This document shows, piece after piece, positions 1-11,805 of a stretch of 11,805 nt of DNA. This stretch comes from an uncultured bacterium. GTDB taxonomy: Bacteria; Patescibacteriota; Gracilibacteria; Absconditabacterales; Absconditicoccaceae. Below the pieces are notes generated by a model that worked only from the letters and a program-made list of their open reading frames with translations, searched no databases and was not told the origin of the DNA. The stretch is from assembly GCA_903943625.1 (NCBI GenBank), contig CAJAPL010000074.1, positions 1 through 11,805 of the forward strand. The letters run 5' to 3'. Both the position numbers and the translations under genes were made by a program. How positions within the stretch are numbered: the first letter of the stretch is position 1; every line of letters starts with the position of its first letter.

Positions 1-242
1 ACCCAAAAACATTAGTTAACAAGCCGTCGAAAAATATATAAACCTGATCAGAAAATAGTCACATAAACCTTATTATTGTTATAAATCAGCAAGAGAATAA
101 CAAACTAAATTTACTTCTAATAAACGATTAGCGAAAATCAATCAAAAAAAATAAAATACTAGGACAAAATAAGCATTGAGCTACATTAATATTGACGAAA
201 TATAATTTAGCTAGATAAATAAATAATTTATATAAGAAATCG

Positions 243-257
243 ATGGCTACGAGCCAT
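243..257. repeat. Short perfect hairpin upstream of ung
   Basis: ATGGCT-ACG-AGCCAT forms a 6-bp stem with a 3-base loop and is more GC-rich than its surroundings. On the plus strand it is followed by an A-rich run rather than a U-run, and on the minus strand by a mixed T-rich stretch, so it is not a clean intrinsic terminator in either direction. It could end transcription of a gene lying left of the window, or be chance. Confidence 0.3.
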
Positions 258-281
258 TAAAAAATAACAAAACAAAACATA

Positions 282-309
282 TTGAATAATAAGAAACTTT
301 TCATATTAT
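282..309 (+). promoter_or_regulatory. Candidate sigma70-type promoter for ung
   Basis: TTGAAT at 282-287 and TATTAT at 304-309 are separated by 16 bases, placing a start site roughly 30 bases before the ung ATG. In such AT-rich DNA, matches of this quality occur by chance, so this is a suggestion from spacing and position only. Confidence 0.3.
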
Positions 310-348
310 AAAACCATCAACCAATTTTTTTACATTTTAATACCTATA

Positions 349-1044
349 ATGTCTATATCTGTCGACATCAATAGTGTCAACATAGAAAATAGTCGGAAAG
401 AAGAGCTTAAAGAAGAATTTTCAAAACCTTATTTTTTACAAATAAAAGAATTTTTATTACAAGAAAGAAATAATTGAAATATAATATATCCCGAATGAAA
501 AAATATTTTCAACGCTTTCAAGCAGACTCCATTTGATCAAGTTAGAGTAGTTATATTATGACAAGATCCATATCACTGAGAATGAGAAGCCCACTGATTA
601 TGTTTTTCCGTACAAGATTGAGTGAGACAACCACCATCGCTCCAAAATATATTTAAGGAGATAGAGTCAGATTTATGAATCCCTAGACCAAAATCTTGAA
701 ATTTAACGAAACGAGCAGAGCAGTGAGTACTTCTACTAAACGCAGTATTAACTGTCAAAAAAGATTCTCCAGCCTCACATAAAGATATCTGACGGCACAC
801 ATTTACAGATGAGGTAATCAAAAAACTATCAAATAAGAAAAACTGATTAATATTTTTATTACGATGAGCATTTGCTCAGTCCAAAGAATCTTTTATAGAT
901 TCTTCAAAACACATTATTCTCAAAGCAGCACATCCATCGCCATTTTCTGTACACAGATGATTTTTTTGATGCAAACATTTTTCACGAGTAAATGAAATTT
1001 TAAAAAGCAGATGAGAAAAAGAAATTAATTGGCAATTAGAGTAA
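349..1044 (+). CDS. ung: Uracil-DNA glycosylase (family 1)
   Basis: The enzyme removes uracil from DNA as the first step of base-excision repair. The protein has 231 residues, normal for bacterial family 1 UDG. Visible motifs are the catalytic water-activating loop GQDPYHGEGEAHG (71-83, Asp73), FSV (86-88), GVLLLN (126-131), and the HPSPFS leucine-loop region (195-200) with the conserved His195. Sixteen in-frame UGA codons all fall at glycine positions, and there is not a single GGN codon. CGG or CGA sits at W16, W122 (NLTxWA), W149 (GWxxFTD) and W172 (LLWG), which are tryptophan in E. coli Ung; one TGG encodes W228. A further CGA at residue 213 is uninformative. The start is the ATG closest to the family N-terminus, with no Shine-Dalgarno. 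It converges on recG 33 bases downstream. The identification is very secure. Confidence 0.97.
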
Positions 1045-1077
1045 ATAAATATTTGTTAATTTAAATTAAATAACTTT
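1045..1077. repeat. Convergent intergenic gap with AT-only palindrome (possible shared terminator)
   Basis: Only 33 bases separate the stops of ung (+) and recG (-). They contain a perfect 14-bp palindrome, TTAATTTAAATTAA at 1056-1069. A symmetric element between converging genes could act as a bidirectional terminator, but with no G or C the stem would be weak, and AT-rich DNA yields such palindromes often. Confidence 0.3.
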
Positions 1078-3240
1078 CTATATCAAAACGTCTCACATCT
1101 TTTCGTTCAAATATTTTTTTAACAAATCCAATCACTTTAGATTAGGGTACTTTTCCAATAACCATTTAGCTCAATCTTGAACATTCTCCAAAAATTTCAT
1201 ATCAGATAAAACATGTAAGGGTATATCAGACTCTCAAGATTGCATAGTCCCAAGAATTTCTCAAGCACCACGATTTTGTAAATCTATTTCTGCAAGTTTA
1301 AATCCATCAGTAATTTCTTCCATTGATTTTAGCCTTTTATAAGTATCTCCAGACTTACTTTTAGTTTCCAAAAAACAATATGATTTAATATCAGATCTTC
1401 ATATTCTTCACCTTAACTGATGTAATTGAGACAAACCAAAACGCTCAGCATTCTTTATAACCATTATTGTTGCCTCTGGGACATCCACTCACACTTCTAT
1501 GACGGTAGTAGACACGAGAAGACATAGTTTTCAAGATTTAAATTGATTCATTATATCGTCTTTATCTTTTGATTTCATTTTACCATGGAGTAATCATATT
1601 TTTCATTTTATTTCAGGGAATAGTGCTTTTGCATCTTCAAACTCAGTCATAGCAGCCTTGAGTTCTTCCATTTTTTCAGATTCTTCAATCAGGGGAGTCA
1701 CAATAAATACTTTTTGTCATTCATTTACTTTTGATAGAATCCATAATTTAAGTTTGATGTATTCTTTCTCAGATATTATCTTTGTGAAAATTGGCTTTCT
1801 ACCAACGGGCATTTCATCAATTATACTCACATCAAATTCTCCAAAGAATGCCAAAGCCATAGATCTAGGTATGGGAGTTGCACTCATTTGTAGTATATGA
1901 GGACTACCAAATCTTTTCAATACGGCCCTTTGCCTTACTCCAAATTTATGTTGTTCATCTACTACAGCATATTTTAAATTTTGAAATTCCACATCTTCTT
2001 GCAATACAGCATGTGTTCAAACCAAAACATTTATTCTTCATTGTTTTAAATCAGATTTTATTTTATCTTTTTCTCACTTAGTCATAGCTCAGGTCAGTAG
2101 AGCAACATTTAATCATAATGGTAAAAGTAATTTTGCTAATGTTCTATAATGTTGGTTAGCCAAGACTTCTAAAGGAGCAAGAAAAACTGATTGTCATCAA
2201 AGTATTTTATGAGTGTAATAAGAAGCTATTGCGGCGACAACAGTCTTACCACTTCCCACATCTCATTGCAATAATCTCATCATTGGCTTAGATAAATGCA
2301 GATCATCAATCAAATGTTTTATCACTTTTTTTTGAGCCATAGTAAGCTGGAAAGGCAATCTTTCTATTATCATTTTTACCTCTTCTCGATTGGGATCTCA
2401 TATATTAGCAAATTTAGATCATAAGACATAATCATTTTTATTTAATAACGAATATAACTGTATTCTTAGCAATCTATCAAAAAATATCCTATGAAAAGCC
2501 TTTTTATTCAACTCAATATTCTTAGGGAAATGAATTTCTCTTATAGTATCTGAGACATTTAAAAGATCGAATTCTTGCAAGAATTCACTAGGTAAGTACT
2601 CGTCAAAAAATATGTCTACTTTGTCTATAATTCATCGCATTTTTTTAGCAAACCATCCGGACGATATTCAATATAATTCAGGATAAACAGGATAAATCCT
2701 ACCAGTCTTAAAACTCTCATCGTCCTTAATTAAGGCATTTTCCTTATCTTCCGATTTCAGATCACCAATAGCTAAATCATCTTCTCATGTGGTTTTAACA
2801 ACACTAGGATGAAAAAAAACAATCTTTCTAACTTTAATAGTTGGCTTTCATATTATAATATACCATTCTCATTCTTGTATCTGACTTGCTAGATATCAAG
2901 AATTAAAAATAGATATAGCTCACTTATTTCATACTTCATCTATAAACCCAATATCATATATCCTTTTTCTTCATCTCATAAAAACTTTCTTAGATATTAT
3001 CTTACCTTTTGTTGTAGTTATTCATTTTTCATCGAGTATAAGTTCACTGAGATTTCTTATTTTAGTTCTATCTTCATAAGCTCTAGGAAAGTATTGCAAA
3101 AAATCCTTTGGAGTCTTTATTCAGTTTTTTTCCAAAAGAGATAGATACTTTGTCGTTGTTTTTAATAAAGACTTCAATTCCTCCAAAACAAATCAATTCA
3201 AATTACTAAAACAACTAACTAATAATCAATTTCTCTCCAC
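1078..3240 (-). CDS. recG: ATP-dependent DNA helicase RecG
   Basis: RecG is a superfamily 2 translocase that remodels stalled replication forks and branch-migrates Holliday junctions. Read from GTG at 3240 to TAG at 1080-1078, it has 720 residues, close to the family norm. An N-terminal wedge region carries PKDFLQYFPRAYEDRT (about 44-59). Helicase motifs follow in order: P-loop GDVGSGKT (326-333), APLEVL (355-360), TGAMTKGEK (383-391), GTHAVLQ (408-414), DEQHKFG (428-434, DExH), SATPIPR (453-459), LLHGKM (550-555), VSTTVIEVGVDVP (576-588) and QLRGRIGR (608-615). The C-terminal part has DGFKLAEIDLQNRGAGE (645-661). About 35 of 52 glycines are UGA. Two CGA codons (residues 202 and 285) lie at variable positions. 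No ATG lies in the right place: GTG is chosen because it gives a normal distance to the wedge, with TTG at 3267 or 3246 as alternatives. There is no clear Shine-Dalgarno. Confidence 0.96.
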
Positions 3241-3296
3241 TTTCAACTTTAAACTCTTGCCACACAATAGCTTGGGGGCAGCTTTCGACTTTTTAA

Positions 3297-3324
3297 TTGA
3301 AATCTAAACCCAATTTTATATACT
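3297..3324 (+). promoter_or_regulatory. Candidate promoter for the ftsH-led gene run
   Basis: In the divergent recG-ftsH gap, TTGAAA (3297-3302) and TATACT (3319-3324) are 16 bases apart, with an expected start about 28 bases before the ftsH ATG. This is the best -35/-10 pair in the window and is well placed to drive the plus-strand run. I could not identify an equally good promoter for recG on the other strand. Confidence 0.45.
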
Positions 3325-3358
3325 TCAAGGACATATTTATTTAATTGTTCAAAAAATT

Positions 3359-5224
<1,866 letters not shown>

Positions 5225-5262
5225 GTTTAGGAAACTTTTGCTTTATACTTTACACCTAAAGA
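5225..5262 (+). promoter_or_regulatory. ftsH-ricT gap with inverted repeat and -10-like box
   Basis: TTTAGG (5226-5231) and CCTAAA (5255-5260) are inverted copies flanking a 23-base loop that holds TATACT (5244-5249). If TATACT is a -10 element, the transcript would begin almost at the ricT ATG at 5263. No matching -35 is visible. This is weak, and read-through from ftsH is equally likely. Confidence 0.25.
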
Positions 5263-6144
5263 ATGATATTGTACGTACTAGATTGGTTCACAAACAAGAA
5301 CATAGAAATACAAAAGGTAGATGACCTGTCTTTTTCAAATATAAAAACCTGAGATAAGATAGTTTATAATCTCGAAGATAAAAACAATACCACAAAGTTA
5401 TCAATATGAATAAATCTATGACACGAAGTTTTGACAGACAGAAAGGGGACTTTCGAAAAAAAGTTAGATTGAGAGGAAAGAGAGTTTTTTGACGAACAAC
5501 AAAAATTTGCACTAGAGATATTCCCTCTATTTAAAGATCTCTTTAAGGAAAATTTTAAATGATCTATACCAGTAACAGCAAGATTTAACACATATTGAGA
5601 TCAGATTTATTTCTATTTCTATTCAGAAGAAAGATATGTTTTCACAGAGTTTGTAAAATGATTGAGAGAAAAGCTATGAAAAAACATATTTTTATTTCAG
5701 GTTTGAGCTAGAGACATGGTCAAAATGTCTCCTGGTACAGATCATATCACATGATGTAATTGAATAAATCTTTGTTGCAAGAGCTCTAGAGCCCTACCAA
5801 GTGTTGAAATGGAAAATATCATACTTCAAAATCTTGAATGAAGAGACATAGAAAGACTTAAGTGAAGATGTGGTAAGTTGAAATGTAGCTTGATATATGA
5901 ATTGGAACTTTATACTCAAGAAAGTAAAAAGTATCCACCAAAATGATCAGACGTAGAATGTAAATCTTGTGACGCAAAATGATACTCAACATCATACAAT
6001 ATAATGACATGAGACGTGACAATAAAGACCACTGAATGAGAAACGTTTAGAGTCCCAGTAGCACAACTAAAAATAATAAAAATAAAAGAACCCGAACGTA
6101 TAGAAAAAACAGAAAGAATACCAAAAAAAGACAATTTAGAATAA
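5263..6144 (+). CDS. ricT: PSP1-domain protein, RicT (YaaT) family
   Basis: The 293-residue protein matches the PSP1 C-terminal domain family. In Bacillus subtilis the member RicT (YaaT) is part of the RicA-RicF-RicT complex, which carries Fe-S clusters and assists RNase Y-dependent mRNA processing. Diagnostic parts are FALEIFPLFKDLF (82-94), the strand IYFYFYSEERYVFTEFVKGLR (115-135), then GCNGINLCC (164-172) and GRCGKLKCSLIYELELY (201-217), the family's two cysteine-rich signatures. It ends with a KOW-like segment and VPVAQLK (264-270). Cysteines 165, 171, 172, 203 and 208 are candidate cluster ligands. An extra CxxC (C233, C236) follows. Seventeen of 20 glycines are UGA, and there are no CGA or CGG codons. 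The family call is firm. The partners and RNA role are inferred from Firmicutes, and I see no RicA or RicF gene here. Confidence 0.88.
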
Positions 6145-6157
6145 TAACATTAAAGAA

Positions 6158-7054
6158 ATGATCAAAATTTGAACAATTTTATGGATAGTCTTAACACTTA
6201 TAATTGTAATATTGCCATTATGATTATTGTTTTTTGTACTAACAAAAAGGACTTTAAGAGTTTGAAATTTTCTAGAACAAAAGTTTAATGATTTCAAAAC
6301 TCTAAAAAAAATAAAGAAAGAGATCCTAGAGAAAAATCAGGAAGAACAGATTGAAACAGAAGTTATAAGAGATTCTTTTGAGCCAATAGACGAAATAAAA
6401 GAGCTAATAAATAAACAAAAGAGCGACATTAATAATGAACAACCCAAAGAAGAAGAGCCCATGGGAGAGCAAGATAAAAACATCATTTTAAAACAAAAAA
6501 AACTGTTAGAAAGAATCGTTTACGAGGCTATGACACTAAAAAAAGAATGAAAAATAGATGAATATGAAAAAAAATTAATAGAGGGGCTAGCAATAGATCC
6601 GATTAATCTAGAGATCACAAAACAGCTAGCGGAACTATACTTCACAATATGAGATCACAAAAAAGCGCTATCTCTATCCAAAAAGATTATAGAAGAAGAC
6701 CCCGAAGATCATAATGCAATACGACAAATATGAGAGATATATCTACTTACATGAGATCTCAAGACAGCAGAGATATTGGTTGAAAAAGCGATTAGCCTAA
6801 AACCAACAAATCCAAAATACTATATCAGCATGGTGGAAATTCTTTACAATACGGAAAGGAAAAAAGAAGCAATAGACTCTATGGAGAAGATTGTAAAGCT
6901 TAGACCAACAAACACAAACTATATGATGACGCTAGCAGATCTATACGAAGAGATTGATGATCCAGATAATTCAAGGAAGTATTTTTTTAAGATATTGGAA
7001 CTAGAGCCATCAAATGAAAAAGCAAAAAGAAAAATAAAAAACTACGCAAAATAG
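6158..7054 (+). CDS. Membrane-anchored tetratricopeptide-repeat protein
   Basis: The 298-residue protein begins with one hydrophobic segment (about 4-28), followed by a charged, Lys/Glu-rich, probably coiled-coil linker (about 38-115) and four or five TPR units (about 118-286). The clearest repeats are 151-184 (AELYFTIGDHKKAL), 185-218 (GEIYLLTGDLKTAE), 219-252 and 253-286. TPRs are protein-docking scaffolds, so a membrane-tethered adaptor on the cytoplasmic side is likely, but the partner is unknown. Seven of nine glycines are UGA. A CGA codon (residue 189, 6722-6724) falls at the often-aromatic fifth position of a TPR unit, compatible with Trp. The ATG is 13 bases after ricT, so the two are almost surely co-transcribed. 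No Shine-Dalgarno is present. The family is clear, the function is not. Confidence 0.85.
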
Positions 7055-7081
7055 TTTTTTAGTCTTTCAAAACCGACCACC

Positions 7082-8413
7082 ATGATAGCAAAATACTATC
7101 AATTATTAAAAGAATTTATTGAAATTCCTAGTATATCAATAGATAAGGAACACTTGGGTGATATAAAAAAAGCAGCCAAGCGACTAAAGAAAGTTTTTGA
7201 AGAACATAAGATGGACGTCCAATTTATAGAAGGGTATTGAAATCCCATAGTAATAGCCAGTTATGAACACAATGCCAATCTCCCTACCTGCACAATTTAC
7301 TGAAACTATGACGTGTTACCTGCAAATAAAAAAGATTGACGGAAAGATGACCCATTCTCTTTGTACATCTGAAAAGAAAGTATATACTGAAGATGAGTAG
7401 CCGATACCAAATGACAGATACTAATACATATGGTATCCATATTTGAATTGATAAAAGAAAAGAATCTTTGATACAACATAAGATTTTTTATAGAATGAGA
7501 AAAAATAACCTGATCTGAGAATACAAAAAGATTTATAGTAGAGAATCAGGAAAAATTAAAATCAGATTTCTTTCTTATGTCAGATTGAAGTCTGGTAAAT
7601 AATGATGCATGTTTATGAACTTCAACCAGAGGGAATATAGATATATCTTTGATTATAAAAACCGCAAATAACCAGATAAGCACAGGGACATATTGAGGTA
7701 TAGTGCCAAACGCCATACATGAGACATGTAAATTATTATCCAAGATACACTGAGCAAATAATCAGATCAACATACCATATTTTTATTACGACGTAGAAGA
7801 AATACCATTCAACACAGTCATAAATAATAAGAAAATAGAATTTGAAATAGATAAAGTACAAAAAGAACTATCCATAAAAAGTATGTTTAAGGAAAAGAAT
7901 CTTGATTATATTTCACAGATTGGACTCAGGCCGACAGTACAGATAACTTCTATAAGATCTTGATATGATGACAAGATTACAAGGAAAACAATTCAAAATA
8001 AAGCGGTAGCAAACATAAGTTTCAAAACAGTTAAGAAACAGAGTCCAGATAAAATCATAACATCGTTTCAACAACGGATAGGCTCAAACATACCAGATTA
8101 CGTAGAATATGACATCAAAGTCGATCAAATATCAGAGTGGGTTGCAATAGATAGAAAGAATAAATATTTTTGAAAGGCGGAATCCTTCTTACAAGATATA
8201 TTCCAAACCCAAGTGATACATCTAAATTTAGGGACAACAATACCGGTCCTAAACACAATTACAAAAAACATAACAGAGAACGTATTGATAATCCCATTAG
8301 CAAACAATGATTGTAATTCTCGATGATCAAGTGAAAATCTAAACATAAAATTGATAGAGAAATGATTCTTGTTTACATTAAACTTTTTCTCCACTCAGTT
8401 GCAGTTATTCTAA
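7082..8413 (+). CDS. M20-family metallopeptidase-like protein, probably inactive
   Basis: The 443-residue protein has the layout of M20 dipeptidases and deacylases: AAKWL (31-35), YGNYDVLPA (73-81), GWKDDPF (86-92), YGRGVADTKGQ (102-112), EGEKITGS (138-145), MSDGS (166-170), TYGGIVPNA (about 202-210), and a C-terminal SSEN (416-419). Active members bind two zinc ions through the His of YGHYDV, the Asp of GRGxxDxKG, the second Glu of EGxEEIGS, the Asp of SD and a late His. Here these are Asn75, Asp108, Ile142, Asp168 and Trp414. The general-base Glu is Lys141, and the His of the HSG dimer contact is also absent (STG). Asp77, Asp108 and Asp168 remain. A non-catalytic or altered role is therefore likely. 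Eighteen of 26 glycines are UGA. CGA at W34 and CGG at W87 (7340-7342) hit family tryptophans. Confidence 0.85.
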
Positions 8414-8441
8414 TAATATTTTAGTCCATTATTTACTGCCA

Positions 8442-9236
8442 ATGAAATCTTTGATTGTTGCATGATGATACGGCACAAGGATGTTACCAATATCAAAAGT
8501 AATAGCTAAAGAAATGATGCCAGTTTGAGATAAGCCTGTGATCCAGTACATAGTTGACTGAGTTGTCTCATGCTGAATAAAAGATATTGTCATCATAACA
8601 ACCTGATCAAAAAAAATCATAGAAGATCGATTTGATAAAAATTATGAGCTTGAGGATATGTTGCAAAAAAAATGAAAGACTGAAATGTTGGAGATGATAA
8701 ATAAGCCAAAAGATATGGCAAATTATACATTCGTAAAACAGTTAGAACGGCTGTGAACATGATGAGCAATCCTGCAAGCACAAGACTGGATAGATGACGA
8801 TTTTTTTATAGTAAACTTCTGAGATGCTATATATGACACAAAAGATTTTCAGAGAATGTTTAAAAAATTTCAAGAAACAAAATGCCCAGTTATATGAATA
8901 ATCCCTGAGCCTATAGAAGAAACATCAAATCATTGAGTAGCTAAATTAGATTGAGAAAAAGTAATTGAGATAGAGGAGAGTCGTGATATAAACAAAGCTC
9001 CATCAAATTACATATGGGATTGATTTTGTATACTGCCACATAAAATTTTCAATATATTGAATGACATAAAAAAGCAGAGAGATTGATGAAAATTTCGTAT
9101 AGCAGATTGAATAAATATTTTAGCAAAAGGAATGGATATATATTGAGTAAAGATAGATTCTTATCGGGACATATGAAACATACAAAAACGATTAAAAGCA
9201 AATGATAAGATATACAAAGACTGATCTTTATTTTAA
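8442..9236 (+). CDS. galU: GalU-like UTP-glucose-1-phosphate uridylyltransferase
   Basis: This nucleotidyltransferase would join a sugar-1-phosphate to a nucleotide, most likely making UDP-glucose for envelope glycans. The 264-residue protein is a little shorter than most GalU (about 290-300). It starts with the nucleotide-binding signature AGGYGTRMLP (7-16), then KEMMPVGDKPVIQYIVD (23-39, very GalU-like), EDWFDKNYELE (61-71), LGTGGAI (104-110), the metal-site region FGDAI (126-130) and YWDIGN (241-246). GGKFRIADGI (215-224) corresponds to the GEIQLTDAI region. Differences from textbook GalU are Trp103 in place of the Pro of EPLG and Ala129 for the second Asp of GDD, so a different sugar or nucleotide cannot be excluded. 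Twenty-one of 23 glycines are UGA. CGG at residue 242 and CGA at 250 fall at aromatic positions. The ATG follows the M20 gene by 28 bases without a Shine-Dalgarno. Confidence 0.88.
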
Positions 9237-9271
9237 ATAGACACACATAGACAAAGTAGACTATTTTCCAA

Positions 9272-9299
9272 TTGATAATGAATTTATTTTAAATATAAA
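9272..9299 (+). promoter_or_regulatory. Candidate promoter for dnaB
   Basis: In the 96-base galU-dnaB gap, TTGATA (9272-9277) and TATAAA (9294-9299) are 16 bases apart, about 33 bases before the dnaB ATG. The longer gap here than inside the preceding run supports a separate transcription start. Confidence 0.35.
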
Positions 9300-9332
9300 C
9301 CTTTCGCAATATTTTAAATCAGAGTTAACAAC

Positions 9333-10694
9333 ATGATTAACATAGATGATATAAAGTTACCACCGCATAACATCGAAGCAGAGAAATGAGTTCTGTGCTG
9401 AGCTTTGATGGATAATGACGTTATACGAATGTATGATGGAGATTCATTAATGGCTCAAGATTTCTATCAGAAAGAACACTGAATGATATACAATGCAATC
9501 CAAGAACTATGGATACAGCGTAAGACTATAGATGCAGTTACTGTGGCTGATCAGTTAACAAAAAACAATGAGATAGATCCAGTTTGATGAATAGATTATC
9601 TTTATGAACTATCTACTTTTTTGATATCTACATCATCTTGTTGAGAATATTCCAAAATAGTAAAAGATAAATCGGTGCTTAGAAACATACTTAAAGTCTC
9701 TCAAAAGATAATATGAGACGTCTATCAACAAAAGGAAACAACAGAAATATTGGATGATATCGAAAAGAAAATTTTTGAACTCACACAACAAAAGATATGA
9801 GATTCTATGGTGAAGATTTCAGATATTTTAAAACAGAGAATAGAAACGTATATGGAGATAGTTGATAATCCAGAGAAAGCAAATGAAAGAAAAGTATTGT
9901 CTGGATACACATGATTGGATAATTATCTCACATGATTTAAACCTTGAGAACTGATAATTGTAGCCGCACGTCCAAGTATGTGAAAAACATCTTTTGCCAT
10001 CAATATACTTACAAACGTAGCACTAAAACAAAACAAATCAGTTGCTTTGCTTACACTGGAAATGCAATCAGAATCAATAGTAGATAGAATAATATCAGAG
10101 GTTTCTAGAGTCCCAATGTATAAAATTACAAAATGAAATTTGGAAGAAGAAGATTTTGCAAACATAGGAGAAGCTATAGAAGCACTAGGTGAAACAAAGA
10201 TTTATATAGATGATAAGTGAGCATATACAGTACCTCAACTAAAATCCAAACTTAGAAAACTTAAGATAGAAAAAGGAAGTTTAGATTTGGTGATTGTAGA
10301 TTACTTACAATTGATGCATTGAGTTGCCTACTCATGAAATAATAAAGTACAGGAAATAAGTGAAATCTCTAGATGATTAAAAGAGCTATCAAAAGAGCTT
10401 GAGGTGCCCATTATAGCGCTATCACAACTTTCACGTGCTGTTGAACAACGTGTCGATAAAAAGCCTCAACTAAGTGATCTTAGAGAATCATGAGCAATAG
10501 AGCAAGATGCCGATGCTGTAATAATGTTGCACAGAGAAGATTACTATGATCCTAGTACAGATAAAAAATGAGCGACTGATGTATGTATCAGAAAGAATAG
10601 AAATGGGGCAGTGTGAGAAATCGAACTTCAGTTTGAAAAAGAAATTATGAAGTTTACAGAAAAAGCGACTAAATCATCAGACAATACCTACTAA
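9333..10694 (+). CDS. dnaB: Replicative DNA helicase DnaB
   Basis: DnaB is the hexameric helicase that unwinds DNA ahead of the replication fork. The protein has 453 residues, the usual length. The N-terminal domain opens with [20 protein letters not shown] (10-29) and DFYQKEHGMIYNAI (43-56). A linker follows, then the RecA-like domain: [24 protein letters not shown] across 190-213, P-loop ARPSMGKTS (212-220), TLEM (241-244), VDYLQLM (322-328), [12 protein letters not shown] (362-373), DLRESGAIEQDAD (382-394) and the arginine-finger motif RKNRNG (420-425). No intein is present. Twenty of 26 glycines are UGA, including G217 of the P-loop. Conserved arginines R213, R368 and R373 are encoded by CGU, showing that CGU keeps its standard meaning. 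A single CGA (residue 32) lies at a variable site. The ATG gives the normal N-terminus. Confidence 0.97.
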
Positions 10695-10818
10695 GTCTCA
10701 ATAGAGGAGTGGGGGATTTTACTCAAAAATATAGGGCCCGATCTCCAAATAATAAAAATTATCACCATATAGACCGGTCTAGTCACAAAGAAAATATTTA
10801 TAAAAATCTGGCTAATCC
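10695..10818 (+). promoter_or_regulatory. dnaB-TPM gap: palindrome and candidate promoter
   Basis: This 124-base gap holds the perfect 12-bp palindrome TAGACCGGTCTA (10770-10781), unusually GC-rich for the region, and a -10-like TATAAA (10799-10804). A -35 spaced 17 bases from that box would fall at 10776-10781, inside the palindrome, an arrangement typical of a repressor operator. The -35 match itself is poor. A second GC patch, GGGCCC (10735-10739 region), lies just upstream. There is no convincing U-tailed terminator hairpin after dnaB. Confidence 0.35.
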
Positions 10819-11697
10819 ATGATCAAAAAAATTTCAACCTTTCTATTACTACTTTCTGTGTTCTCTTTTGCCATATGATTTGAGATACCAAGTCCAAACT
10901 GAGTTATCAATGACTTGACCAACACTTTAACAATAGATCAAAAAAGTCAGCTTTCAGATTTAATATCAAATATAAAACAAACAACAAGCGTAGAAATCGC
11001 AGTTCTTATAGTGCCTACAATAGATTGAGACGATGTAAATTTACTGGCAACAGATATATGAAATAAACGATGAGTCTGACAAAAATGAAAAGATAATTGA
11101 ATCATAATGTTATTTGCCATGGAAGACAGATCACGATCAATACAGGTCTGATATTGATTGGAATGAACGATACCAGATGCAATAGCAAAAAGGATTTGAG
11201 AAAACAATATAGTCCCAAATTTCAGAGAATGAAATTATTTTCAAGGGATATATTCATCCATAAACGACATCAATTTATACATACAAAAGGATCCAACTGT
11301 TATACAAGCATATTCAGAAAATTCTAATTCTTCAAATAGTACTAGCTTTGATTGGAATGGTTTAGCTACTTGGCTGATATGGGTTTTCTTTATTGCCTCA
11401 GCCGCCATAGGAAAATCAATAATCCCCAAATCAAAAAGAAAAGACAAAAAGAAACGATTGAAAGCAATATTAATAATATGATGAATATGAGTCTTATTAT
11501 GACTAATATCTTGAAGTATAATACGGTCCATAATAGCATGATACATATGAATGTTATTTGGTATTTTTTGAAAATGAGGAAACTGATGAGTTGGGTTTGG
11601 AGGCTGATGATTTAGCAGTTGAGGATGATTCAGTAGCTGATGATCTAGTTTCTGATGATGAAGCTTTGGCGGGGGAGGATGATGAGGTAAACGATAA
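10819..11697 (+). CDS. TPM-domain (YgcG/TLP18.3-like) membrane protein with glycine-rich tail
   Basis: The 292-residue protein has an N-terminal hydrophobic segment (about 4-20) acting as a signal peptide or anchor, and a TPM (DUF477, Pfam TPM_phosphatase) domain at about 24-165. The family signature is NKWGVGQKGKDNGIIML (82-98) and IQVGYGLEGTIPDAIAKRI (108-126). Two membrane stretches follow (about 180-202 and 214-247), separated by a basic KSKRKDKKK segment. It ends in a Gly/Ser/Phe tail (about 249-292) closing in Gly-Lys-Trp if CGA is Trp, like the GGGGASGxW ends of YgcG homologues. About 35 of 48 glycines are UGA. CGA at W84 (11068-11070) and W292 (11692-11694) match family Trp. TPM proteins have been linked to photosystem repair in plants and to membrane processes in bacteria, but the bacterial role is unsettled. 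A CGA at 220 is in a basic stretch; a CGG in the second membrane stretch fits Trp better than Arg. Confidence 0.9.
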
Positions 11698-11741
11698 CGA
11701 TAAAATATTGAAAACAGCAAAAATAAAAATATAAAAAGCGC

Positions 11742-11805
11742 ATGAATGTTTTAATTTTTAAATCCATTATAATTAAAATGAAAAAGACACGAATAATTAT
11801 TTTAT
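11742..11805 (+). CDS. Start of an unidentified gene, cut by the window edge
   Basis: An open frame starts at ATG 11742 (MNVLIFKSIIIK...) and contains a second ATG at 11778 (MKKTRIIIL...), running off the right edge without a stop. The MKK start followed by hydrophobic residues looks like the beginning of a signal peptide or membrane segment, which favours 11778. A perfect TATAAT lies at 11768-11773, so a transcript from it would be almost leaderless at 11778. Too little sequence is present to name a product. Confidence 0.4.
   Translation, partial: MNVLIFKSIIIKMKKTRIIIL

Follow-up and report, generated by a model that had tools for sequence, protein, structure and literature searches.

In the genome of an uncultured bacterium of the family Absconditicoccaceae (order Absconditabacterales), the codons CGA and CGG almost certainly encode tryptophan, as judged from codon placement and tRNA genes, and UGA probably encodes glycine. 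The stretch of DNA under study, here called the window, comprises 11,805 nucleotides (contig CAJAPL010000074.1, positions 1 to 11,805; G000:C74) of assembly GCA_903943625.1, which has a size of 1.01 Mb in 216 contigs and is 88% complete. The tryptophan meaning of CGA and CGG had been proposed in a preliminary description of the window alone. It is supported by the alignment columns which these codons occupy in the tryptophanyl- and valyl-tRNA synthetases (TrpRS and ValRS) and by Trp-type tRNAs with the anticodons UCG and CCG. Because this reassignment was published for the lineage in 2021, the code change itself is already known; what the present analysis adds, tentatively, is the descent of the tRNAs and the extent to which the codons have spread.

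Meaning of CGA and CGG in the window and its family

The meaning of the codons was assessed with a column test which resembles Codetta. The two synthetases were taken from 33 family genomes in all, with TrpRS sequences from 21 family genomes and 20 others and the best ValRS-family matches from 31 and 23, respectively. The ValRS of the window's genome is a fragment, and some ValRS matches of the family are just 25–30% identical to the query. Every CGA and CGG was masked as X in the alignments, and the codons were scored against the residues found in other families. In the window's family, tryptophan is the best assignment for CGA (193 sites, +861.9 bits; arginine −693.6) and is likewise favored for CGG (33 sites, +125.6 bits; arginine −122.3). 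The control codons of the same family were scored as expected for TGG (W, +2074.6 bits), CGT/CGC (R, +187.3 bits) and AGA/AGG (R, +1182.3 bits). Among the remaining families of the class, the two codons behave as arginine codons, with +323.0 bits against −645.1 for tryptophan at 194 CGA sites and +287.4 against −405.7 at 125 CGG sites. The codon-to-profile inference that the preliminary description had named as a check thus returns tryptophan within the window's family and arginine elsewhere in the class.

The same picture is seen in the columns that are at least 70% Trp in the outgroups. Here the window's family uses TGG 329 times, CGA 133 times, CGG 21 times and other codons 111 times, whereas CGA and CGG are absent from these columns in the outgroups (TGG 364, other 23) and in the families f12 and f14 (TGG 36, other 20). 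Arginine columns of the two synthetases are filled by AGA, AGG, CGU and CGC in the window's family. When the genomes were scored one by one, with f12 and f14 excluded from the reference, tryptophan exceeded arginine in all 28 family genomes with a scored CGA site and in 16 of the 17 with a scored CGG site. The window's own genome contributes two CGA sites (Trp +12.6, Arg −7.2 bits) and two CGG sites (Trp +2.8, Arg −7.2 bits). Outside the family, arginine prevailed in all genomes with a scored CGA except G036, which has one site.

The window has a GC (guanine plus cytosine) content of 30.7%, and its gene set, read with NCBI genetic code 25, consists of nine genes (Table 1). Together they contain 15 CGA, 8 CGG, 15 TGG, 79 AGA, 20 AGG, 9 CGT and 1 CGC codons and 208 in-frame TGA codons. 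The tally of about 23 CGA/CGG against about 15 TGG codons, counted by hand in the preliminary description, is exact, and each CGA or CGG that it cited in Ung, the M20-family protein, the TPM-domain protein and GalU lies where it was placed. The four arginine motifs cited there indeed encode Arg by CGT, AGA or AGG.

Table 1. Genes of the window and individual CGA/CGG sites of Ung. Residue counts refer to Ung homologues (best 120 of 8000); for each invariant Trp column, sequences with Arg at another invariant Trp column were dropped (screened).
Feature	Position	Strand	CGA/CGG codons and remarks
Uracil-DNA glycosylase (Ung)	349..1044	+	CGG 394, CGA 712, CGG 793, CGA 862, CGA 985; TGG only at 1030
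Ung CGG, aa 16	394..396	+	invariant Trp column; W in 73/74 screened
Ung CGA, aa 122	712..714	+	invariant Trp column; W in 73/77 screened
Ung CGG, aa 149	793..795	+	invariant Trp column; W in 73/74 screened
Ung CGA, aa 172	862..864	+	invariant Trp column; W in 73/76 screened
Ung CGA, aa 213	985..987	+	K/R/Q column; 108 homologues (76 K, 19 R, 8 Q, 1 W)
RecG	1078..3267	-	CGA 2637 and 2388 (minus strand)
FtsH	3359..5224	+	CGG 3500, N-terminal region
PSP1-like protein			weak match
TPR protein	6158..7054	+	CGA 6722, within TPR region
M20-family protein	7082..8413	+	CGA 7181, CGG 7340 (W..DPF), CGG 8075, CGA 8321
GalU-like nucleotidyltransferase	8442..9236	+	CGA 8628 (Y/H column), CGG 8748, CGG 9165, CGA 9189
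DnaB	9333..10694	+	CGA 9426; conserved Arg sites examined are CGT/AGA
TPM-domain protein	10819..11697	+	CGA 11068 (WGVGQ), CGA 11134, CGA 11455, CGG 11524, CGA 11692 (last codon)

Within the window, four sites lie at invariant Trp columns of Ung. All four are Trp in five PDB sequences (best 5 of 43 matched), and the chance that 23 randomly placed CGA/CGG codons would cover them is about 1e-9. The preliminary description had also ascribed near-invariant Trp sites to the M20-family protein. This holds for Ung and does not hold for position 7181, whose column holds aromatic residues in most homologues (Y 40, W 27 of 87); at 7340 the column has W 59 and R 27 of 87. Of the two aromatic positions claimed for GalU, the column at 9189 has W 59 and R 31 and that at 9165 has R 43 and W 37 of 114 homologues. 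The arginine share at these GalU columns, for which same-clade records were included, probably derives in part from mistranslated records of the same clade.

Translation of CGA and CGG as tryptophan instead of arginine raised the profile scores of several proteins. The score of Ung increased from 328.2 to 354.0 bits against NCBIfam NF003589 and from 64.5 to 65.7 against Pfam UDG, that of the TPM-domain protein from 123.3 to 132.7 against Pfam TPM, and that of the M20-family protein from 32.9 to 38.3 against Peptidase_M20 and from 40.5 to 43.0 against M20_dimer. GalU gained against TIGR01099 (200.9 versus 195.2 bits) and barely shifted against Pfam NTP_transferase (101.1 versus 100.7). Elsewhere in the genome, the best models of GatB (546.5 versus 540.2 bits) and of a U32-family protein (320.8 versus 315.0) favor tryptophan, as does a metallophosphatase (52.3 versus 51.5); other models of GatB change by −1.4 to +5.1 bits and those of the U32-family protein by −0.3 to +0.3 bits under the tryptophan reading. 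The rescoring of the window covered all genes but those of the FtsH, TPR and PSP1-like proteins, which hold 2 of the 23 codons.

Several observations weigh against the tryptophan assignment. The column of Ung 985 is dominated by lysine (Table 1). RecG scores slightly better with arginine in its best model (732.5 versus 731.8 bits) as well as in TIGR00643 (652.5 versus 649.1) and Pfam RecG_wedge (48.7 versus 46.4), and DnaB with its CGA at 9426 is neutral (TIGR00665, 493.3 versus 493.2 bits between the readings). In GalU, several lower-scoring nucleotidyltransferase models favor arginine (AglF, 87.5 versus 80.5 bits), and CGG 8748 falls in a Q/M column. CGA 8321 of the M20-family protein stands in a His column (His in 76 of 87 homologues), and the lone scored CGG of genome G023 fits arginine marginally better (−3.3 versus −4.3). 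However, TGG also occurs at non-Trp columns in the window, namely a P/A column of the M20-family protein (8138) and a mixed column of GalU (9015), so a few ill-fitting sites are to be expected even for a true tryptophan codon.

If the genome used plain code 25, CGA and CGG would still encode arginine and would merely stand at unusual positions. The sites in Ung (985), RecG (2637 and 2388) and DnaB (9426), neutral or Arg-like, and the lower-scoring models of GalU would agree with this. We regard it as virtually excluded, since the strongly negative family-wide arginine scores of both codons contradict it statistically and the best models of Ung, TPM, M20, GalU, GatB and U32 favor tryptophan. 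The statement of the preliminary description that code 25 would mistranslate these sites is supported. Alternatively, decoding could be ambiguous, with chiefly tryptophan and residual arginine, and the codons could be kept where either residue is tolerated. The few Arg-compatible sites of the window would be explained in this way, and the method of Shulgina & Eddy (2021, PMC8629427), as described in the available sections of that paper, cannot directly detect ambiguous translation. Nevertheless, in family columns with at least 70% of one residue, CGA falls on Trp in 133 of 142 cases and on Arg once, and CGG on Trp in 21 of 26 and never on Arg. The scatter of TGG is similar (Trp 329 of 349, Arg 3). 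Ambiguous decoding thus appears very improbable.

tRNAs for CGA and CGG and their possible descent

A tRNA survey of the window's assembly yielded 33 hits. They include tRNA-UCG (C68, C177), tRNA-CCG (C19, C152), tRNA-Trp(CCA) (C135) and two arginine tRNAs, tRNA-Arg(GCG) (C46) and tRNA-Arg(CCU) (C165). Both tRNA-UCG and tRNA-CCG carry the Trp-type G73 and lack A20; the identity rules applied (G73, not A20, A/G1:U72) were taken from Shulgina & Eddy. No Arg-type tRNA for CGA or CGG was found among the 33 hits from this 88% complete assembly, which speaks against both unchanged arginine decoding and ambiguous decoding. The tRNA check suggested in the preliminary description thus turned out in favor of tryptophan. 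The 33 hits likewise contain no tRNA with an ACG anticodon and no UCU or UCA tRNA genes; UCA tRNAs occur in the relatives G013, G021 and G029.

The Trp-type features recur across the family. Of the genes found there, each of the 32 UCG and each of the 24 CCG genes carries G73, and A20 is missing from all of them. The pair A1:U72 is present in 24/24 CCG genes, and the UCG genes have A1:U72 (13), G1:U72 (13) or G1:C72 (6). All 48 tRNA-Trp genes, 32 from the family and 16 from outgroups, have A1:U72 and G73. In contrast, the UCG/CCG genes from the other families of the class have A73 in nine of nine and A20 in eight of nine cases. Some gaps and one exception count against the tryptophan assignment. 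No Trp-type UCG tRNA was found in 4 of 36 family genomes (G004, G021, G025, G029) and no CCG tRNA in 12 of 36, in incomplete assemblies and with non-exhaustive tRNA searches; pattern searches gave mainly chance matches, of which just the tRNA-like ones were retained. An apparent absence of tRNA-UCG from g18, G006, G007, G010 and G017 was rejected after a covariance model had found the gene. The exception is a normal Arg-type tRNA-UCG of G029 (L366, G029:C58, 465–541), which has A73 and A20 as well as an encoded CCA and is located in a Pro-His-Arg-Arg-Leu tRNA cluster. This contig is probably a contaminant because it carries a tRNA cluster with encoded CCA and only short open reading frames (ORFs), and because the genome measures 1.3 Mb, compared with 0.8 Mb for a genus mate; the gene was dropped from the family tRNA counts.

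The UCG and CCG tRNAs were compared with reference tRNAs after exclusion of the anticodon. In the narrower comparison, in which the other classes were represented by just 11 tRNAs of the window's genome, tRNA-Trp was the nearest reference beyond the reassigned tRNAs for 32/32 UCG and 23/24 CCG genes and tRNA-Arg for none of either. Trp remained nearest for 30/32 and 22/24 when the acceptor stem and N73 were also excluded, and for 26/32 and 19/24 when the D, variable and T arms alone were used. When references were drawn in equal numbers (11 Trp from outgroups, 11 Arg, 11 from other classes), Trp accounted for 97% (UCG) and 93% (CCG) without the anticodon, for 84% and 85% without the acceptor stem and N73, and for 75% each on the three arms, where the 5–95% range for UCG is 48–81%. 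Leave-one-out controls recovered 16/16 Trp and 11/12 Arg tRNAs without the anticodon, and 15/16 and 9/12 on the three arms.

When the references comprised 17 tRNA classes, Trp, which is the largest class, is nearest for 27 of 28 distinct UCG genes and 20 of 23 distinct CCG genes. Equal sampling of 11 classes with five genes each reduced these values to 60% (UCG) and 54% (CCG), followed by Gln with 21% and 26%; Arg did not exceed 1–2%. On the D, variable and T arms of this set, Trp reaches 25–26% and Glu leads for UCG (46%). The origin from tRNA-Trp is less secure as a result, since the wider set of tRNA classes weakened the earlier comparison. Further points go against it as well. By identity to tRNAs of the same genome, tRNA-UCG is closer to Cys (59%), Glu (56%) and Gln (51%) than to Trp (50%), and tRNA-CCG is closer to Gln (58%) than to Trp (49%). 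In a tree, 20 CCG genes cluster with the tRNA-Gln of the window's genome (0.95), and the anticodon loop CTTCGGA of 23/25 family UCG genes also occurs in 5/7 outgroup tRNA-Arg(UCG) genes; seven family UCG genes found later have the loop CTTCGGC. In the same tree, UCG clusters with one outgroup tRNA-Trp (G038; 0.75), and two CCG genes (G022, G030) are placed among the family tRNA-Trp with low support (0.43). The pair U31:G39 is present in 19/22 family CCG genes, 32/32 family tRNA-Trp and 1/16 outgroup tRNA-Trp.

Three routes to these tRNAs can be envisaged. From the sequence comparisons, the likeliest origin of the UCG and CCG tRNAs would be extra copies of tRNA-Trp with an altered anticodon, a proposal to which we give about an even chance. 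A second route is the recharging of the former tRNA-Arg(UCG) and tRNA-Arg(CCG), whose identity elements would have changed (A73 to G73, loss of A20) so that TrpRS captured them. The shared loop CTTCGGA would fit such a history, and a charging change is thought to underlie AGG=Met in Bacilli, according to the available sections of PMC8629427. It is nevertheless improbable, since Arg is nearest for none of the 56 genes compared without the anticodon and stays at the margin in the equal draws, rising to 8–13% once the acceptor stem and N73 are removed; moreover, U31:G39 links the CCG genes to the tRNA-Trp of their own family. Third, tRNA-Gln, or another tRNA with G73, could have changed its anticodon and then acquired tryptophan charging. 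The clustering of CCG with tRNA-Gln, the second rank of Gln in the balanced draws, the lead of Glu for UCG on the three arms and the D-arm of tRNA-UCG all suggest this, and the tRNA-Gln of the window's genome also has G73. This descent, too, seems rather unlikely to us, given that Trp is nearest for nearly all distinct genes when all references are used, that A1:U72 is found in every CCG gene as in tRNA-Trp while two copies of the genome's own tRNA-Gln have U1:A72, and that the CCG genes of G022 and G030 stand, with low support, among the tRNA-Trp. On these comparisons, the lack of closeness of the UCG and CCG tRNAs to tRNA-Arg is better supported than their identity as tRNA-Trp copies. Among the titles and abstracts listed from the open-licence PMC literature (bioRxiv lay outside the scope), none dealt with the origin of the UCG and CCG tRNAs, which does not prove that no such account exists.

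Two observations concern the tRNA genes of the assembly as such. The genes for tRNA-UCG and tRNA-CCG are each present twice, with one copy each near a contig end; this may reflect duplication or an assembly artefact. A second, differing set of tRNA-Ile(GAU), tRNA-Pro(UGG) and tRNA-Asn(GUU) is found at L009 (G000:C29) and L010 (G000:C82) and comes possibly from mobile elements or contamination.

Spread of the codons and comparison with known codes

Codon usage was determined as raw counts in ORFs of at least 150 aa, for the window's genome in six stretches. Its 13,362 codons include 47 TGG, 65 CGA and 25 CGG, so that CGA and CGG make up 66% of the tryptophan codons. Across 34 family genomes, sampled with 1,554 to 13,362 codons each, this share ranges from 0.00 (G007) to 0.78 (G020). 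It is at least 0.5 in 14 of the 34, and CGA alone outnumbers TGG in 11. The claim of the preliminary description that CGA and CGG are the majority Trp codons is therefore correct for the window (23 versus 15) and its genome; it does not carry over to the conserved Trp columns of TrpRS and ValRS in the family, where TGG (329) still leads over CGA and CGG together (154). A link between the share of the reassigned codons and the GC content of the samples was considered and discarded as weak (Spearman 0.33, p 0.056, 34 genomes). The family may hold stages of a sense-codon takeover side by side, with the codons hardly in use in G007 and predominant in G020.

In 4,928 codons sampled from the complete single-contig genome G007, neither CGA nor CGG occurs, yet this genome encodes Trp-type tRNA-UCG and tRNA-CCG. 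Two CGA codons stand at Trp columns of its TrpRS/ValRS genes.

The 2021 survey of Shulgina & Eddy (PMC8629427), in its available sections, reports CGA/CGG=Trp for Absconditabacteria with similar tRNA evidence and states that confirmation needs experiment. It matches the computational survey that the preliminary description had mentioned, with UGA=Gly and CGA/CGG=Trp in Absconditabacterales. The window's genome agrees with the code described in these sections in the codons affected, their meaning, the lineage and the low GC content, and also in the G73/not-A20 tRNA-UCG and tRNA-CCG and in tRNA-Arg(GCG) for CGU/CGC, with no ACG tRNA among the 33 hits. UGA=Gly is probably shared too, given the 208 in-frame TGA codons of the window's genes, although the tRNA-Gly(UCA) that belongs to this code is not among the 33 hits. 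It differs in codon abundance. The published account describes an early-stage reassignment with rare codons, CGA below 37 per 10,000 in all species and CGG below 7 in all but one (Pfam-aligned), with assembly GCA_002791215.1 nearing UGG; in the sampled ORFs of the window's genome, CGA and CGG together exceed UGG. The two measures are not directly comparable, because raw ORF counts take in codons outside conserved domains. The same sections give no origin of the tRNAs and do not describe several genera in which CGA is the most frequent Trp codon. A 2026 paper (PMC13092985) treats CGA/CGG=Trp as established in its available part, and a paper on Absconditabacteria phages (PMC10746230) applies code 25, with the word CGA not occurring in its main text as available. 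Code 25 shares UGA=Gly with the window's genes and reads CGA and CGG as Arg, which fails in the window's family.

In Anaerococcus and a clade of Bacilli, an Arg codon has likewise passed to Trp with a Trp-like tRNA, as described in the available sections of PMC8629427. There CGG alone is affected and CGA is presumed to be Arg via tRNA-Arg(ICG), whereas here both codons are involved and a GCG tRNA serves CGU/CGC. Within the class, family f14 has reassigned UGA, as seen from in-frame TGA, like the window's family, but reads CGA as Arg. In the f14 genome G048, five CGA sites score +12.5 bits for Arg and −17.0 for Trp, and its tRNA-UCG has A73 and A20; a single site in G057 gives +1.0 and −3.6 bits. 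Since G048 uses in-frame UGA and yet has CGA=Arg, the reassignment of UGA extends beyond that of CGA and CGG.

The reassignment has practical consequences. Among the Ung homologues (P0007–P0126; best 120 of 8000), 47 of 120 carry Arg at an otherwise invariant Trp column, so protein databases probably hold many mistranslated entries. Structure prediction, annotation and expression will be wrong at such sites unless the extended code is applied. To research on how genetic codes evolve, the window's family offers a graded series, with CGA and CGG making up 0 to 78% of the sampled Trp codons, which together with the candidate tRNA ancestors makes the question of how a sense codon changes its meaning testable, for example by charging assays.

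TrpRS, a possible course of events and the M20-family protein

In TrpRS, the 21 sequences of the window's family and the 20 from other families differ at nine positions, each fixed to at least 80% on either side. Five of them (225, 232, 236, 282 and 284 of the G001 open frame) lie downstream of the KMSKS motif, with changes that include M to K (236) and G to K (284). The anticodon-binding domain of the Thermotoga maritima TrpRS comprises residues 187–294, according to the available part of its description, and the differences were matched to this domain by position only. They may merely reflect ancestry, because the window's family is a single clade; their bearing on the new decoding through the putative anticodon-binding region is suggestive at most. 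A 2023 review, in its available part, lists the anticodon as a further major identity element of tRNA-Trp, from which we infer that this TrpRS reads the anticodon less strictly or differently. Genome G013 contains two TrpRS genes above the family cut-off (G013:C1, G013:C5).

In the proposed mechanism, TrpRS would charge tRNA-UCG, which reads CGA and, by wobble, CGG, as well as tRNA-CCG, which reads CGG, and tRNA-CCA. With less certainty, extra tRNA-Trp copies would have changed their anticodon and displaced the former tRNA-Arg. After the change of meaning, Trp positions would have drifted from UGG to CGA and CGG, unequally among genera. Taken as a whole, a course of events in which tRNA-Trp copies changed from CCA to CCG and UCG, the Arg tRNAs were lost, the anticodon-binding domain of TrpRS adapted and CGA/CGG became most of the Trp codons in roughly one third of the family, if not more, is possible, though somewhat short of an even chance. 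In at least one line (G022/G030), the anticodon of tRNA-Trp would perhaps have changed afresh.

The nearest named relatives of the window's proteins, among the matches listed, belong to Candidatus Absconditicoccaceae/Absconditabacterales, with 88% identity for Ung. This agrees with the taxon which the preliminary description had named.

The M20-family protein of the window deviates in several motifs. It has YGNYDV in place of YGHLDV or YNHYD, and EGEKITGS in place of EG.EE..S, of the listed PDB homologues, and CGA at the C-terminal His column. In active M20 peptidases, these motifs supply metal-ligand residues. The protein, apparently devoid of these ligands, may be a non-peptidase relative.

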